This document shows positions 2,534-24,725 of a stretch of DNA of 27,281 bases, one piece after another. Position 1 is the first letter of the stretch; each line of letters starts with the position of its first letter. Origin of the DNA: a virus; IMG/VR virus record IMGVR_UViG_3300020122_000346, positions 1 through 27,281 of that record. One strand, written 5' to 3'. The notes below the pieces were generated by a model. That model had not been told where the DNA came from. It worked only from the letters and a program-made list of their open reading frames with translations, and searched no databases. The position numbers and the translations under genes were made by a program.

Positions 2534-3222
2534 TTTGCAATTCCAGCCTGCTGTTGCTGTGGTCCGGTAGGTCCGCCAAAGTTACCTCCGCCGCCTTTGC
2601 TGAGGTAGGCTTCGGCCAAGCCATAAATACGGGACTCAATCCCGCCGAGGACAGGATCGGGCATCGCGTTAATCTGGTTCTGAAGCCAGCTTCTCTCAAA
2701 CTGCATATTGCGTTCCTCAACATCAAAGCCTGCCTGCTGTAGCGGAGAGATGAACATCGACGAAACATTCATCATGCCAGGTTGATACATGGCATCCATG
2801 GTCTTTAGCCAGCTTTCGGCAGATGAGATTCCTTTATCGATCAGGTTCAGCGAGGTAAGTCCCAAGTCACGAGCCACAAGATCCCCGTGCATCCCCGATC
2901 CAGCAAATCCGCCCGACAATGCCCGTGCCGCTGCATTGCTCTGCACCGCGTTGGAAACGTCAGTCGGTATCTGGCCTTTCAGCAGCGACTCAATGTCGGT
3001 CGAAGCTGCGCCGGTGATCTCGCCGTAGTTCGGGATCACCGACGACAGCATTTGCTGGATTTGCTGCTGGGTGAACTGGTTGGCTTGGCCAACGAGCTTC
3101 TCGGTAGCTGGAAGGGCTGACAGGTTGCCAGTTATCGCGGTCTGTTGCTCGCTCTGAAGATTGAGCTTTTGAAGCGGTGGGACGCTTGGTTTAGAACCAA
3201 ATATTTCTTGAAGCACGCCCAT
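2515..3222 (-). CDS. Virion protein of unknown role (tail/internal type)
   Basis: The product is 235 residues from an ATG three bases after the TGA of the upstream connector-like gene, so translation is probably coupled; no strong ribosome site is visible. I know no function. The sequence is Gln/Ser/Ala-rich with a segment SAAR/ALSGGFAGSGMHGDL near residues 95-115 followed by a helical region (LGLTSLNLIDKGISSAESW). It ends in a low-complexity Gly/Gln tail (GGGGNFGG, QQQQ). The position among tail and internal-protein genes suggests a structural or ejection protein. The last codons and stop lie inside the 3' end of the opposite-strand HNH gene, so the present C-terminus may have been set by that insertion. 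Confidence 0.7.
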   Translation of the reverse strand: MGVLQEIFGSKPSVPPLQKLNLQSEQQTAITGNLSALPATEKLVGQANQFTQQQIQQMLSSVIPNYGEITGAASTDIESLLKGQIPTDVSNAVQSNAAARALSGGFAGSGMHGDLVARDLGLTSLNLIDKGISSAESWLKTMDAMYQPGMMNVSSMFISPLQQAGFDVEERNMQFERSWLQNQINAMPDPVLGGIESRIYGLAEAYLSKGGGGNFGGPTGPQQQQAGIANQGMSM

Positions 3223-3225
3223 AAA

Positions 3226-4272
3226 TCAAAGTAATTGTTCGACCGGATCGACCGATCCAAAATTCCAGCCCTGGACATTGATCCCGATTTTTCGACCTGA
3301 GCCCAAATAGTGATCAAGTTCGCTATCAAGTTCCTGAATCGCGCCCCGAATATAAACCTTGGTTTTCGGGTTCACTCCCCCGTCCATCAAAAGCGAGGCG
3401 TCAGAAAATCTTAGCTCCTCCTCGGCCTTTATGCTCATGCAGGCTTTCTTGAGCGCAGCCAGGTTGCCGATGGTCAGGAAATCGCTGCCAATCGAAACCG
3501 GGATGAAATCGAGCTTGGCCAGCACTTCGACTTTGTACGTGCTGCCCTGGGTGACCGGCAGGAGCGAAGGGAAAAAGTAGCGGGCAAATGCCGGCCTCGT
3601 GTTCGAGGGCTCGTATTGTCCCAGTAGGGTGAATTGGTGCGTGTTGTTATCGTACTGGTAGCACCATACCTGCCCCTGGAGGTCGTTGGGGAACTGTATC
3701 CCGGTGACCTGAGTCCATGAAGTTGAGCTAAATACCAAGGGCTCGGCGCTGGTTCGGATGGTGATGAGTTCCCCGCTCTGGAAATTGGCCGTTGCTCCGA
3801 TCTGGGTCCTAACCCAGTTTGGAGGGCTGGAGAAGTCGTAACCCTGAACCAGCACTTGCTTGCCTGAATCCACCGAAAGGTCACAGATGAAGCGCAAGGC
3901 TACGTCAGTGCCGAACACATCGGTTGCCAGTGGATAATTGCCTCGAAATTCGCAACCTAACCTACCGTCCGGCATTGTTTCATCCATTGGCCCCCAGCCG
4001 TTGTCGAGCCATTCGTACCAGAAATCATGAACTGGGACTATGCTCCGGTTGATGGAAGCTCGCTCAATGCTGGCAATTTGTCGGGGCGTGCTTATGAGCC
4101 CGTTAGTTACCGCGATATTGAATCGCCCCATGGTTCCCCACCAATGCCCGCGCTTGATGACCCGGTCCTGGGCCTCGTTGATGTAGGCTATGACCCGGGG
4201 ATCGGACGGCGGAAGGTTAACCGCTTCCGGTATCCGGCTGTCCAGGGCGTCTTGGAGGGTCTTTCGCTGCAT
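3226..4272 (-). CDS. Connector/tail-tubular-protein-A-like virion protein
   Basis: I chose ATG 4272, giving 348 residues, because it follows the TGA of the upstream gene by one base (TGATATG), a termination-reinitiation arrangement. TTG codons at 4287 and 4284 would extend it slightly. The N-terminal 45 residues hold YINEAQDRVIKRG followed by WWGTMGRFNI, resembling the start of adaptor or tail tubular A-like proteins of short-tailed phages, where an INxAQxxLL helix precedes a beta-rich body. A TPRQIASIERASIN segment (about 62-75) fits the same class. Residues 90-270 are beta-rich, and the last 60 are helical and charged. Placement between the collar-type protein and internal virion proteins supports a head-tail connector or tail-tube role. 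This is a pattern-level assignment without a profile search. Confidence 0.6.
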   Translation of the reverse strand: MQRKTLQDALDSRIPEAVNLPPSDPRVIAYINEAQDRVIKRGHWWGTMGRFNIAVTNGLISTPRQIASIERASINRSIVPVHDFWYEWLDNGWGPMDETMPDGRLGCEFRGNYPLATDVFGTDVALRFICDLSVDSGKQVLVQGYDFSSPPNWVRTQIGATANFQSGELITIRTSAEPLVFSSTSWTQVTGIQFPNDLQGQVWCYQYDNNTHQFTLLGQYEPSNTRPAFARYFFPSLLPVTQGSTYKVEVLAKLDFIPVSIGSDFLTIGNLAALKKACMSIKAEEELRFSDASLLMDGGVNPKTKVYIRGAIQELDSELDHYLGSGRKIGINVQGWNFGSVDPVEQLL

Positions 4273-4273
4273 A

Positions 4274-5053
4274 TCAAGGAGCAACAATCAAAGTTCTGGC
4301 TGTGCGTTTGATGAAGAAAGCCCCCCGGTAGGGGTTCATCAGGTTCAGCGGGGATGGTGGGCCGCCGGCGGGATCGCCGTTGAAGGCGGTTTTAAGCTGG
4401 AGAACATCATCATGGTTTACCTCGGCTCCCTGAACAAAGGGAACCGGAGTCGCCGGGTGAACCGGGACATTCCCGGTAGATCCATCCCAGAAAAGACCCC
4501 TGGCCTGACCAAACCAGGTCGGGCTGAAATACGGAGGCATTAGGTGCTGATGGTTTGGTATGACGGTTGTGTCGAGCACAGCTTTTTCAGCTCCCCCAGT
4601 ATCGTTCACGTTGACGATTGTTCCATAGGACGTGGCGACCACATTTGGGCCAATCGGTATTTTGAAATCGAAGTTATGGTCTACTTGCCAGAACGGGCCG
4701 GTACGATCGCTGACGGTGGCGTTACTTCCCCCGTCGTAGGTCAGCAACGCGGCCTCGGTGTCGGTCCATAGCCGGCGCTCGGCTGAACTTCCCGGTACCG
4801 GATAGGGCCGAATCCAGTCTCCCGAGAAGGTGTACCATCCGTCGATTATCCCGGTGTTGTCAGTCCTGAGCCAAGGGAGGTTTTGCTGGTCTGGAGTGGG
4901 CCGGTTTGGCCCAAAGTTAAACGCGATCCCTCCCTGGACCGTCGCAAACAACTGAAGAACCAGATCGTTTAGGAACTGCTGCGGGCTATTGGGATAGCAA
5001 TAGCCTTGCGGGAAGTTTCCCCCGGAAATGGTGATCTGAATGTTGTCGGGCAT
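4274..5053 (-). CDS. Tail collar/fibre-type virion protein
   Basis: ATG 5053 gives 259 residues; a TTG at 5062 would add three. The N-terminus (INISGGNFPQG-like, ending in a YCYPNSPQQFLNDL helix) precedes a beta-rich body with many Gly, Trp, Pro and Asn residues. The C-terminal half has VIPNHQHLMPPYF (about 163-175), and the last 25 residues contain MNPYRGAFFIKRTAR. These two signatures, a His-rich HxH turn and an NPPY-like segment before a FIxRT strand, are characteristic of phage tail collar domains found in short-tail-fibre tips. The gene follows the cysteine-rich virion gene and is nearly coupled to the connector-like gene. Likely a receptor-contacting or baseplate/fibre protein. The collar assignment is from motifs, the receptor role inferred. 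Confidence 0.65.
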   Translation of the reverse strand: MPDNIQITISGGNFPQGYCYPNSPQQFLNDLVLQLFATVQGGIAFNFGPNRPTPDQQNLPWLRTDNTGIIDGWYTFSGDWIRPYPVPGSSAERRLWTDTEAALLTYDGGSNATVSDRTGPFWQVDHNFDFKIPIGPNVVATSYGTIVNVNDTGGAEKAVLDTTVIPNHQHLMPPYFSPTWFGQARGLFWDGSTGNVPVHPATPVPFVQGAEVNHDDVLQLKTAFNGDPAGGPPSPLNLMNPYRGAFFIKRTARTLIVAP

Positions 5054-7554: not shown

Positions 7555-7815
7555 TCACATTATTCTCCGATGACGAAAGTGTTTAACACCGAACTCCATG
7601 AGGTGGTTAATTGCCATCTGATCGGCATCAGACTGGCTGATTTTAGACTCGTAACGGCCCGCTCTAGTGAAATAAACATATTTGTATTTGCCGTCAGGAG
7701 AATCTATTTCAAATGCGATTTTTTTATTTAGAAACCTTCGTCGGCGGAATAGCCACCCAAAACTGATTCCACCAACACCAAGGAATGCGGTGCGTATGAA
7801 GGATCTTGTGTTCAT
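7555..7815 (-). CDS. Small protein with N-terminal hydrophobic/Arg-rich segment
   Basis: I chose ATG 7815, 86 residues; an upstream TTG at 7866 would run into the preceding gene without benefit. The N-terminus (NTRSFIRTAFLGVGG then ISFGWLF) is hydrophobic and followed by RRRR, consistent with a membrane anchor with a positively charged cytoplasmic side. Residues 30-86 are soluble and include a beta-hairpin-like DSPDGKYKYVYF. The gene lies between two paralogous membrane peptides, suggesting a small membrane-protein cluster, perhaps for lysis or DNA ejection. No family is recognised, and the membrane anchor is a visual judgement. Confidence 0.55.
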   Translation of the reverse strand: MNTRSFIRTAFLGVGGISFGWLFRRRRFLNKKIAFEIDSPDGKYKYVYFTRAGRYESKISQSDADQMAINHLMEFGVKHFRHRRIM

Positions 7816-7828
7816 AAAACTCGATTCG

Positions 7829-8020
7829 TCATCCACGTTCCATGGCGAAAAACAAACCAATGGCAAGAAACATAAATATGGTGACGGCTAAGAGTAGTAA
7901 AATTATCCACCACCAGGGCATGCTATAGTCCCTTGCGGGAGCTGTTTCGTCTCGCTTGGGCCTGGGGCCGGATGAGCGTGGGCTATTAAATGGAGGTAAC
8001 GACGGAGTGTAGAAAATCAT
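7829..8020 (-). CDS. 63-residue single-pass membrane protein (paralogue of 7402-7521)
   Basis: ATG 8020 overlaps the TGA of the 583-residue tail gene (ATGA). The first 33 residues are Pro/Ser/Arg-rich and probably cytosolic (FNSPRSSGPRPKRDETAPAR). MPWWW then opens a strongly hydrophobic stretch of about 24 residues ending GLFFAMERG. The membrane segment and the MPWW motif match the 39-residue peptide encoded 0.5 kb downstream. This copy has about 25 extra N-terminal residues. Holin-like size and topology are compatible with a lysis role, but that is unproven because no endolysin lies within the window. Confidence 0.65.
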   Translation of the reverse strand: MIFYTPSLPPFNSPRSSGPRPKRDETAPARDYSMPWWWIILLLLAVTIFMFLAIGLFFAMERG

Positions 8021-21671: not shown

Positions 21672-21929
21672 TCAATCCCCAACTCCGGCCAACTCTGGAA
21701 CTTTTCGAGATGGGTTAAGTTTTCTAACCCCGGTATCCATAAATGGAATTTCCGGCTTCTCCCCGCGCAACTGCGCGTATTCCATTTCCATTTTAAGAGT
21801 TCCGAGAATTTTCCCTGCCGTATTGGCTAATTCTCCGACCTGGTTCACGGCCCGAGGGTCTCGGCTCAGCTTGTCGTACGCGTCGAGGAGTTGGTCTCTT
21901 AGTTCGGTAACGTTTGTTGGCTTTGGCAT
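21672..21929 (-). CDS. Small helical protein in reverse-strand insert
   Basis: This ORF encodes 85 residues and ends at base 21672, immediately beside the scaffold stop, so the two genes converge without a gap. The sequence NVTELRDQLLDAYDKLSRDP, then VNQVGELANTAGKILGTLK and MEYAQLRGEKPEIPF, is fully helical and charged. From memory, similar NELR-type small proteins accompany HNH or zinc-knuckle genes in other phages. The start overlaps the 3' end of the zinc-knuckle gene by 31 bp. Function is unknown; a regulator or recombination accessory role is speculative. Confidence 0.65.
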   Translation of the reverse strand: MPKPTNVTELRDQLLDAYDKLSRDPRAVNQVGELANTAGKILGTLKMEMEYAQLRGEKPEIPFMDTGVRKLNPSRKVPELAGVGD

Positions 21930-22489
21930 AGTTTAATCTTTCGTTTTAGTTTTATGTAGTTTCGGTAAAGGTCGATCAAATCTCGCGTTACCCCTTTCGT
22001 GAATCCCGACTGGCGCAATGTGTTTTTGATGTAATAATCGGTCAGCCTATCGGATTGGAGCTTTTTCCATTCGCGCTGTTTAAGATTTCTGCATGCCAGG
22101 CATCCCCATCTCACAGTCCTCCCGAGCCTAGTCCGGTAACCGGTATTTTCCTCCGAAAGCAAGTGCCCCCTGGGGCAATGAGTGGGCTTGGGTTTTGGAG
22201 TGCGCCAGCTACGACCGCGATTGCACTCTCTGCAACCCGCTTTAATGACGTGCCCGTTCTTGAAAACCCACCTCGTGTTCTCATCTGTGAGGAGGTGGCC
22301 ATGTTTGCAAAATAGCTTTTTCGGCTTGCTTCCCTTGCACAGTAGGCACCCGTCTCGAACCCAGCTTGAACCCCTAACGCCATGACTCAGCCGCCAGCGA
22401 GTGTTTTCCTGTGTGACTGGATGGCCATACTTACAGAACTTGTTGGCTGGTCGGCCAACTTTCTTTTTATGCAATGCGGGCTTGCTCAT
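21899..22489 (-). CDS. Triple zinc-knuckle protein, possibly homing-endonuclease related
   Basis: This ORF encodes 196 residues from ATG 22489. Three repeats each have the pattern C-x2/3-GH...ENT...G...C-x2-C: C19/GH22-23 with C48/C51; C61/GH64-65 with C86/C89; C105/GH108-109 with C130/C133. This spacing is a zinc-ribbon or treble-clef unit of the kind found around phage HNH endonucleases, but no HNH catalytic core is visible here. The C-terminus (SDRLTDYYIKNTLRQSG... then DLIDLYRNYIKLKRKIK) is a basic helical region also seen in mobile-gene products. The pair with the small helical gene lies in reverse orientation between scaffold and capsid, so it looks like a mobile insertion. DNA binding is likely; cutting is unproven. 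Confidence 0.7.
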   Translation of the reverse strand: MSKPALHKKKVGRPANKFCKYGHPVTQENTRWRLSHGVRGSSWVRDGCLLCKGSKPKKLFCKHGHLLTDENTRWVFKNGHVIKAGCRECNRGRSWRTPKPKPTHCPRGHLLSEENTGYRTRLGRTVRWGCLACRNLKQREWKKLQSDRLTDYYIKNTLRQSGFTKGVTRDLIDLYRNYIKLKRKIKLCQSQQTLPN

Positions 22490-22535
22490 TTGTAGACTGC
22501 AACCAAGTTAACCATGCAAACAAAGAAACTGGAAC

Positions 22536-23208
22536 CAAAGGACAGAACACCTGCCTTGGGAGTCTGTCGCAATTTGCTTGCGATCATCGCTCTCCCCAGT
22601 CGGCACCATGAGGGCGCCGACCTTTAAGCGAACCTCAGAAACGCGAGACAGATCGCAACCTGCCTCGTTGTGGGTGAGATGACCTGGGAGCCTGCGCACT
22701 TTTTTTGTCGAGACTCGCAGCGCAACGGGATCTGTCACGAGCCCTGGCACTCCTGCCAGAACACCCAATTTCCTTGCTATGAGGAGGCAAAGCGTGCCGG
22801 GGACTCTCACCCCTGTGTCCATTAGGTGTCGAAAATAGCCCGCCGATGTTTACGCATCGACGGGGGTGTAAGCGGGAGAATGACTCGCACTTACGGTTGT
22901 TTTCGACACGGATGGTCGAAATCGAAAGCTTGTTCGACTCGCTTGAAGGGCATCAGTGTCCGGCGCGTAAACGCATCTAAAAGAGTTTCTAAGTCTAATC
23001 ACCGCTCCAGTCAACTGAAAAATAATTCTTGCTTGTTCCGACTTGGGGGCGTATAGCAGCAATCGTGGTATAGCTCACGGCCACTGAAATGTGAGCAGGT
23101 CTTCCGCCCGGTTGACCACCGAGCACGGCATTAGGTTGCCCCTTCCCAAAGCCTAAGCAGTTCCCAAATACCCGCAGCATGCCTAGGCGTGTGCCTAGAG
23201 CTGGCTGC
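22536..23208 (+). ncRNA. Candidate large structured RNA upstream of the capsid gene
   Basis: About 670 bases contain no credible ORF but many complementary segments, read here on the plus strand. Examples: TTGCGATC/GATCGCAA (22578-22585/22651-22658), GTCGGC/GCCGAC (22599-22604/22616-22621), GACAGATC/GATCTGTC (22647-22654/22729-22736, an alternative to the first), CTGGC/GCCAG near 22744-22759, a 15-bp helix at 22826-22909, GTCGAA/TTCGAC (22915-22920/22933-22938), CTAAGTC/GACTTGG (22989-22995/23040-23046, one wobble), GCTCAC/GTGAGC (23073-23078/23091-23096), and a terminal hairpin CTAGGC-GTGT-GCCTAG (23183-23198) inside GCAGC/GCTGC. Wobble pairs favour plus-strand RNA. The size and phage context recall ornate RNAs such as GOLLD or ROOL, but I cannot assign a class. 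Boundaries are estimates; it could instead be a long structured leader of the capsid transcript. Confidence 0.5.
22826..22909 (+). other. Three-way-junction RNA element with possible kissing loop
   Basis: GTGTCGAAAATAGCC (22826-22840) pairs with GGTTGTTTTCGACAC (22895-22909), 15 pairs including a U-G and a G-U wobble. Inside are two hairpins: CGATG-TTTACG-CATCG (22844-22859) and a second closed by GTAAG/CTTAC (22868-22872/22890-22894). The TTTACG loop is exactly complementary to CGTAAA at 22966-22971, itself in a small GCG-TAAA-CGC hairpin, suggesting a tertiary loop-loop contact. GACAC of the 3' strand can alternatively pair with GTGTC at 22956-22960. Confidence 0.6.
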
Positions 23209-23348
23209 TAACGTCAACAATTTACGTGCTCGGAAATATGACTGCTTTTTTCGCCCGACATAGAGCGGGCATTTTGCTTGGTTTATTCGCAATCGCCTTG
23301 GGGGTGGACATTTACATCGGGTTAACGCACGGCTTTGCGGCTGTTAGC

Positions 23349-24725
23349 ATGGCCGTTTGCCTGGCTCATTTCGATGTCTTGCGGCTCAAGGTGGAAGACT
23401 TAGGCCCAACCCTCTACACCCGCGCATCCTGGCGCGATCTGTGGCTGAACCTGATTCACCGCGAGGAATGGCCTATGGGTGCTGGCCTGGATCGCTCGGC
23501 GTTCACGATTGGCCGTTCGGAGCCGGATACCGAGGAAGAGACCTGGCCAGCTATCGCCGTGTCGTCCGGGGGTAATTACACCGGTTCCTGCGGCGTAACC
23601 TATAACCAGGTCTACGTGGGTCACCTGGAAGTCCATTACAAGCCAGAGCAGTTTGGGCTTTTGGGACCGTTGGTTTGCCAGGATGATTTGACACTGCATT
23701 GGAAGTCCACCGATTTCTGGGAGAAATACTTCCAAGCGATGGAAAAGCGCAACCAGAAGTCGATCATCCATCGACTGGGCAATATTTACATGAATTACGT
23801 GCCCAAGTGGGTAGCGTCAGCAACAGGATTTGCGCCGGTACCGGGCATTTCCGGACTGGTCCAGCCACCGCCTGCCGCCGTGGATTTAAACGGTGACACA
23901 GCGGGCTCTGTAGCAGCCGGTTTTCCGTCCTGCACGCTCGGCCAGGACCATCTGGATACCGTAGCCCAGAATTTGATTGAAATCGGCGCTACCGACCCCG
24001 ACAGCAACGGCTGGATTACCTGGAGCCCTGAAGGCCCCGTATTCCCGCTCAATATCGGGGTGGAGATGAGCAACCGAATCCTGCTCAATAACTCTGAACT
24101 GCGCCGGGATTACCGCGCTGCCTTTGAGGGCTATGGAGATGCCAACCCGGTTATCGCCCGAATCGGAGCTAGCCGGGTCATCAAGAATTTCCGTCACATC
24201 ATTAACCTGAACCCGCCGCGCTGGGCTCAGGTGAATAATGGCCAAACGATTACGGTGGTTCCCGCGACCGGAACAACTCCGGCTGTCACTTACACCAATA
24301 GCAGCGGCAAGACTCGCCTGAGACGCATTCCGGCTTGGTACATGTCCACCGATAGTGTCAATGCCACCAAGGGCAAGGTGGCGATAATCAACCCGCAATG
24401 GCAGGACCCGTCTATTGCCAACGTCGAAGGCGCTGTGGTGATGTCGCCCTGGGTGTTCCACGAAGAGATTCTGCGGCCAGTAAATGCCGCCCCCGGCATG
24501 AAATGGACCCCGCAGAACTACTTCGGTGAATGGCAATTTGTCACCGGCAATGATGCCCTGATCGGGTTCCCTGATTGTCCCGCAGGTGCGCAAGATCCGA
24601 CCCACAAGCAGGGCCGGCATGTGGCCGAATACCGGCATGCAGCGAAGCCGATATTCCCTGATTATGGAGCCCTAATTCTGTATCAACGCTGCACAACAGA
24701 CTGGGATTGCGCTTCGTGCAGCTAG
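23349..24725 (+). CDS. Major capsid protein
   Basis: ATG 23349 gives 458 residues. The motifs LYTRASWRDLWLN and HREEWP (about 23-43), TIGRSEP, GPLVCQDDLTL and the C-terminal GEWQFVTG ... GRHVAEYRHAAKPIFPDYG are the hallmark pattern I associate with major capsid proteins of this phage group, which form the icosahedral shell. The frame is open further upstream, to ATG 23238 or GTG 23226, adding 37 or 41 residues that read as a hydrophobic segment (AGILLGLFAIALG). I chose 23349 because homologues, as I remember them, begin around MA-CL-DFDVLRL; no start has a clear ribosome site. Neighbours fit: a scaffold 1.7 kb upstream and small virion genes after. There are many Cys residues for a capsid protein, including DWDCASC at the end. 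Confidence 0.82.
   Translation: MAVCLAHFDVLRLKVEDLGPTLYTRASWRDLWLNLIHREEWPMGAGLDRSAFTIGRSEPDTEEETWPAIAVSSGGNYTGSCGVTYNQVYVGHLEVHYKPEQFGLLGPLVCQDDLTLHWKSTDFWEKYFQAMEKRNQKSIIHRLGNIYMNYVPKWVASATGFAPVPGISGLVQPPPAAVDLNGDTAGSVAAGFPSCTLGQDHLDTVAQNLIEIGATDPDSNGWITWSPEGPVFPLNIGVEMSNRILLNNSELRRDYRAAFEGYGDANPVIARIGASRVIKNFRHIINLNPPRWAQVNNGQTITVVPATGTTPAVTYTNSSGKTRLRRIPAWYMSTDSVNATKGKVAIINPQWQDPSIANVEGAVVMSPWVFHEEILRPVNAAPGMKWTPQNYFGEWQFVTGNDALIGFPDCPAGAQDPTHKQGRHVAEYRHAAKPIFPDYGALILYQRCTTDWDCASCS

Follow-up and report, generated by a model that had tools for sequence, protein, structure and literature searches.

Two probable back-to-back control regions between the scaffold and capsid genes of a phage, one of them a candidate for a new capsid mRNA leader family

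The window analysed here represents an entire IMG/VR virus record (27,281 bases), in which a structured stretch separates the scaffold gene from the major capsid gene. A preliminary description had proposed one large, ornate RNA at positions 22536 to 23208. In our reading, this stretch probably comprises two divergent control regions, which stand back to back and split at about 23020, rather than a single giant RNA. The plus-strand part, 23029-23237, holds the promoter of the major capsid gene together with its 5' leader, which makes a good candidate for a new phage mRNA leader family. The remaining block (22490-23020) is most likely, at moderate confidence, the minus-strand leader of an inserted cassette. 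The lack of a credible gene, the recurrence of the leader architecture, the synteny, the insertion and the strand bias are observed; that both leaders are transcribed, and what their functions may be, is inferred. The structured stretch extends beyond the formerly assigned end at 23208, up to about 23237 (Table 1).

Table 1. Features in and around the region between the scaffold and capsid genes of the window.
Feature	Position	Strand	Basis
Insertion of about 1.36 kb, from scaffold stop to capsid promoter	21672-23028		comparison with relatives
Small cassette ORF, 85 aa	21672-21929	-	coding-like codon score (0.20)
Zinc-finger repeat protein, 196 aa	21899-22489	-	phrog_826, 3e-16
Probable minus-strand leader of inserted cassette	22490-22979	-	folding z, hairpins
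Three-way junction closed by GTGTCGAAAA/TTTTCGACAC	22826-22909	-	folding z
Candidate promoter TTGACT-17-TAGAAA	22986-23014	-	best match in region; weak
Capsid-gene promoter TTGCTT-17-TATAGC	23029-23057	+	PWM scan, score 5.2 (not exceptional by itself)
H-type pseudoknot GTGGT ata GCTCACG / GCCAC tgaaa TGTGAGC	23065-23096	+	descriptor search
Long-range 9-bp helix, CCGAGCACG (23119-23127) / CGTGCTCGG (23225-23233)	23119-23233	+	exact complement
Possible second pseudoknot GGC-a-TTAGGTT-GCC-N9-AGCCTAA	23127-23156	+	seen by eye; weak
Conserved element TCCCAAATACCCGCAGCATGCC and terminal GUGU-loop hairpin (23174-23208)	23162-23208	+	weight matrix, four relatives
Major capsid protein gene	23238-24725	+	predicted fold, relatives

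The gene downstream of the leader is assigned to the major capsid protein by its relatives and by a predicted fold of low confidence, which matched phage capsids, that of N4 best (Foldseek E 6e-4; VIA Z 9.6). Relatives were found via their terminase, capsid and portal proteins; the close ones share the gene order terminase, portal, scaffold, capsid, and the window capsid protein is 54-69% identical to those of L007, L008, L010 and L012. Searches of 50,697 phage records with the portal and capsid proteins yielded no relative. The conserved part of the capsid protein begins at Met 23349, and 23238-23348 encodes a hydrophobic, membrane-helix-like N-terminal extension. A similar extension occurs in three clade members (the window, L093 at 4941-5000, and L175) and is absent in L007, L008 and L012.

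The capsid promoter of the window is weak, and lies 209 nt upstream of the ATG; in most relatives the distance from the TTGAC box to the capsid ATG is 187-237 nt. The pseudoknot that follows is matched in quality by 2 of 400 shuffled sequences (p 0.0075), and 0.25% of random 80-mers from the window match or beat it. Further downstream, the 9-bp helix is predicted with a pairing probability of about 1.0 within the leader, and its 3' arm lies just upstream of the ATG. The terminal hairpin (CTAGGC-GTGT-GCCTAG) is preceded by TCCCAAATACCCGCAGCATGCC and stands 30 nt upstream of the start codon. A weight matrix built from four relatives ranks the TCCCAAATACCCGCAGCATGCC site first across both strands of the window, a ranking that is supportive rather than independent, because the motif had initially been spotted by eye, in an inspection that included the window. 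A second pseudoknot at 23127-23156 was not singled out by the descriptor search of the window and is not significant; L012, L093, L007 and L019 each have a second pseudoknot at a comparable place.

The architecture of the leader recurs among relatives. An H-type pseudoknot occupies the predicted +1 position in 10 of 15 leaders, with starts confined to a 6-nt span, as compared to 0.58% of random 80-mers. The carriers are the window, L012, L008, L093, L011 (the L007 contig), L022, L129, L088, L031 and L020; in L010, L019, L015, L175 and L176 the position-limited descriptor search found no H-type pseudoknot at that exact place. The pseudoknots start 4-7 nt into the trimmed leaders, which is 33-36 nt past the first base of the -35 box and thus at the expected +1. 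Their stem sequences differ throughout the leaders and the geometry repeats: a first stem of 4-6 bp, a loop of 1-3 nt, a second stem of 4-7 bp and a last loop of 4-9 nt, usually A-rich. In L022, L129 and L088 the second stem is altered on both sides, from GAGTTAG/CTAAACTC to GAGCCGG/CCGGCTC. For the 14 relatives, with the window left out, the Fisher p is 6.5e-12; neither this value nor the p of the window should be taken literally, since the geometry was fixed after the first hits of an open scan and L022, L129 and L088 are alignable. This open, position-free scan placed the +1 pseudoknot on top in most carrier leaders, yet its background was high and it was not selective; the strength of the result therefore lies in the constant position of the pseudoknot.

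The second recurrent element, the GUGU-loop hairpin, is present in 24 of 40 leaders (the window and 23 others), 30-60 nt upstream of the start codon and mostly 40-60 nt when counted from the loop. As a group, the leaders have a mildly low folding energy that is equal on both strands (z -1.26 and -1.27), so that the group z-scores do not separate the strands. In L010 the capsid gene is apparently interrupted after about 20 codons by an insert of about 0.3 kb (approximately 7706-7990), which by eye resembles a group I intron of small size, a resemblance that Rfam did not confirm at the gathering threshold.

A larger sister clade carries a distinct but clear arrangement of two H-type pseudoknots and a GUGU hairpin, which covary in an alignment of 25 distinct leaders (A4). 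In this alignment 92% of the cells are paired, compared with 85.1 +/- 0.6 in shuffled alignments and 24-48% in slid registers, and 47 cells are changed on both sides, compared with 15.2 in shuffles. Stem 1 of each sister-clade pseudoknot is invariant, and hence the covariation supports the other helices. The covariance model of the sister clade does not match the window leader, and homology to the sister-clade version is accordingly argued only from synteny and from the hairpin that both have. The two-pseudoknot leader is found about 170 nt upstream of the capsid ATG in L097, L170 and other sister-clade loci, where no Shine-Dalgarno sequence is evident. An invariant CGACC in these leaders may pair with the GGTC of a loop or, alternatively, with a GTCGG immediately upstream of the ATG, a possible switch.

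The upstream half of the region belongs to an insertion, made up of the block 22490-23020 and a pair of minus-strand ORFs. The scaffold stop of L012 is followed 6 nt later by the capsid promoter, and in L007 and L008 the gap between scaffold gene and promoter is about 80-150 nt. The same slot holds HNH genes in L010 and L176, and small hydrophobic ORFs in L008, L093 and L175. The slot between scaffold and capsid genes is an insertion hot spot, with HNH-related content in L010, L176 and the window (21672-23028). The zinc-finger protein of the window matches the phrog_826 profile at positions 164-234 of 281 only, where phage HNH endonucleases have their C-terminal part, and has no Pfam match; nuclease activity is doubtful, as only the zinc-finger-like part is kept. 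For the 85-aa ORF no relative was found. Elsewhere in the window, 1787-2533 on the plus strand encodes a second HNH endonuclease with helix-turn-helix repeats, inserted in the opposite direction to the neighbouring genes.

The block next to the zinc-finger gene is private to the window. It is absent from all relatives, and blastn and nhmmer searches of 170 relative loci returned only chance matches, as did a DNA search of 12 relative records with the region. Distant blastn of the region against phage records retrieved nothing, and a translated proxy of 22490-23053 had no relative in viral and genome collections. Within the block, 22490-22979 folds better on the minus strand (z -3.9) than on the plus strand (z -2.5). 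Hairpins with stems of 10 bp or longer and loops no larger than 8 nt number three on the minus strand (0.22 expected; none of 500 shuffles reached this number), and none on the plus strand. The three-way junction (22822-22914) reaches z -7.1 on the minus and -5.3 on the plus strand. Since these hairpins lie on the minus strand and the zinc-finger gene follows downstream on the same strand, we read the block as the minus-strand leader of the cassette. The candidate minus-strand promoter stands back to back with the capsid promoter and is not significant, as 35 of 300 shuffles reach its score; upstream of 22489 on the minus strand no Shine-Dalgarno sequence is obvious. Against the minus-strand reading counts the 15-bp helix, which is more complete on the plus strand.

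Alternatively, the block might consist of palindromes that act at the level of DNA, as a recombination or homing target or as a terminator cluster of the cassette, and contain no functional RNA. The arms of the three-way junction are strong on both strands, a terminator-like site is present on the minus strand (22864-22839), and the lack of a conserved relative agrees with this possibility. We nevertheless deem it unlikely, because the local hairpins, unlike DNA palindromes, need the G-U pairs of one strand. A search with the inverted-arm pattern of the junction gave 3 viral and 24 genome hits, all of them unrelated palindromes or chance matches. Recurrent long palindromes (GTGTCGAAAACCCCGGTTTT...) in L188, L192 and L199 (Saccharopolyspora) likely form a dispersed repeat family.

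A single plus-strand RNA of about 0.7 kb, similar in kind to GOLLD or ROOL, ending in the capsid leader and perhaps acting in trans during infection, is very unlikely, even though the region as a whole folds well. The stretch 22490-23225 folds better than all of 20 shuffled sequences, with z -4.8 on the plus and -3.5 on the minus strand. The 15-bp helix (22826-22840/22895-22909) is indeed present and includes two G-U pairs on the plus strand, and an 11-bp long-range plus-strand helix also agrees with a large plus-strand RNA. The supposed crowding with inverted repeats, by contrast, is only weakly above chance when stems are counted: there are 5 Watson-Crick stems of at least 8 bp (3.1 expected; 15 of 60 shuffles hold as many), and 10 of 60 shuffles contain a stem that matches the 15-bp helix in length. 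The excess is local, and confined to the junction 22822-22914, the short minus-strand hairpins and the leader 23060-23240 (z -3.9 on the plus, -1.3 on the minus strand). Coding controls mostly have z around 0; one of them (24000-24529) reaches -2.7, and values near -2.5 should therefore not be over-read. Two helices do need plus-strand G-U pairs, and the argument for the plus strand drawn from them was selective, given that three hairpins (22839-22864, 22644-22667 and 22598-22622) form in full on the minus strand only. The plus-strand wobble helices are real, yet outweighed by the minus-strand signal, and for the first 500 or so nucleotides, a private insertion, the hairpins favour the minus strand. 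Moreover, relatives hold only the last 200 or so nucleotides and have a promoter at the split point.

Known RNA families give no support to a giant RNA either. No match was obtained by cmscan against Rfam, run on the window at the gathering threshold and on 22400-23300 at E values up to 10, nor by Rfam searches of the relatives' loci or with the GOLLD and ROOL covariance models in the window. GOLLD and ROOL often lie near tRNA islands in phages (PMC12286853); the sole doubtful tRNA call in the window is 19 kb away. It is a 92-nt tRNA-Asn (att) reported by ARAGORN at 3176-3267 on the minus strand, which overlaps ORFs and is probably spurious. The region does have structure, lacks a credible gene and is tied to the capsid gene, as had been proposed; a packaged RNA finds no support. 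HEARO or IscB omega RNA gave no Rfam match; the neighbouring gene encodes a 196-aa zinc-finger-like protein, whose match to an HNH family covers the C-terminal part of that family alone, not an IscB-type protein with RuvC and HNH domains. Rfam models of group I and group II introns matched nowhere in the window.

The earlier view that 22536-23208 holds no credible gene is borne out by the ORFs, which lack a codon signal, and by a six-frame PHROG scan of the region, which found no family match. Four ORFs inside (22508-23180) score -0.27 to 0.00 bits per codon, whereas the main genes reach 0.16-0.31. The criterion is not an absolute one, as the inserted zinc-finger ORF also scores 0.00, and codon usage alone does not discriminate against a foreign ORF, e.g., 22508-22822 on the minus strand. 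That this frame encodes a 104-aa cassette protein is very unlikely, since, although it is open, ends 19 nt before the zinc-finger gene and resembles that gene in its atypical codon usage, searches of phage records, PHROGs, Pfam and the 170 loci gave no relative, and spurious ORFs of similar size are common in the window.

With two divergent leaders as the preferred reading, the following scheme may be proposed. The capsid mRNA would start at about 23065 from its own promoter, directly with the H-type pseudoknot, followed by a structured middle part, the GUGU hairpin and a helix that covers the bases upstream of the ATG. The 5'-terminal pseudoknot would most likely shield a heavily used mRNA from decay that depends on the 5' end, and the downstream helices may set or regulate capsid translation, with the gene 32 leader of T4 as the analogue. 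Between the scaffold gene and the capsid promoter a mobile cassette was inserted, which carries a zinc-finger, HNH-related gene, and its probable hairpin-rich leader of about 490 nt on the minus strand perhaps limits cassette expression, as in T4 homing endonucleases. It is possible rather than probable that the combination of +1 pseudoknot and GUGU hairpin represents a widespread, undescribed class of capsid leaders, which serves as an mRNA shield or as a capsid-controlled operator, in the latter case with the capsid protein or the assembly state controlling its own translation. Literature searches revealed no earlier description of such a family of capsid-gene leaders. Control of capsid dosage is central to virus assembly.

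Like GOLLD and ROOL, the region is phage-associated, noncoding and about 0.7 kb in total; unlike them, it is a composite of two opposite leaders with no conserved unit of that size, which cautions that a pair of divergent leaders may mimic a single giant RNA. In T4, hairpins control the homing endonuclease genes I-TevI, mobE and segB, and antisense segD adjoins the capsid gene 23 (PMC2988022). The window cassette likewise is an endonuclease-related insert near a capsid gene with strong upstream hairpins on the gene's own strand, but in contrast to I-TevI, mobE and segB these hairpins do not evidently extend over the start. In T4, gene 32 has a pseudoknotted leader on a very stable mRNA (PMC3014915), and the T4 and T2 versions of this leader share with the capsid leader an H-type pseudoknot that lies within the 5' leader and precedes the start codon of a gene in heavy use. 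In the window, however, the pseudoknot is placed at the predicted very 5' end, about 140 nt ahead of the start codon, a terminal GUGU hairpin lies 3' of it, and the downstream gene codes for the major capsid protein rather than a single-strand-binding protein. The two leaders are likened by architecture. A leader that recurs in shape across a phage clade, with a pseudoknot at the predicted +1, could be a second phage system of this type.
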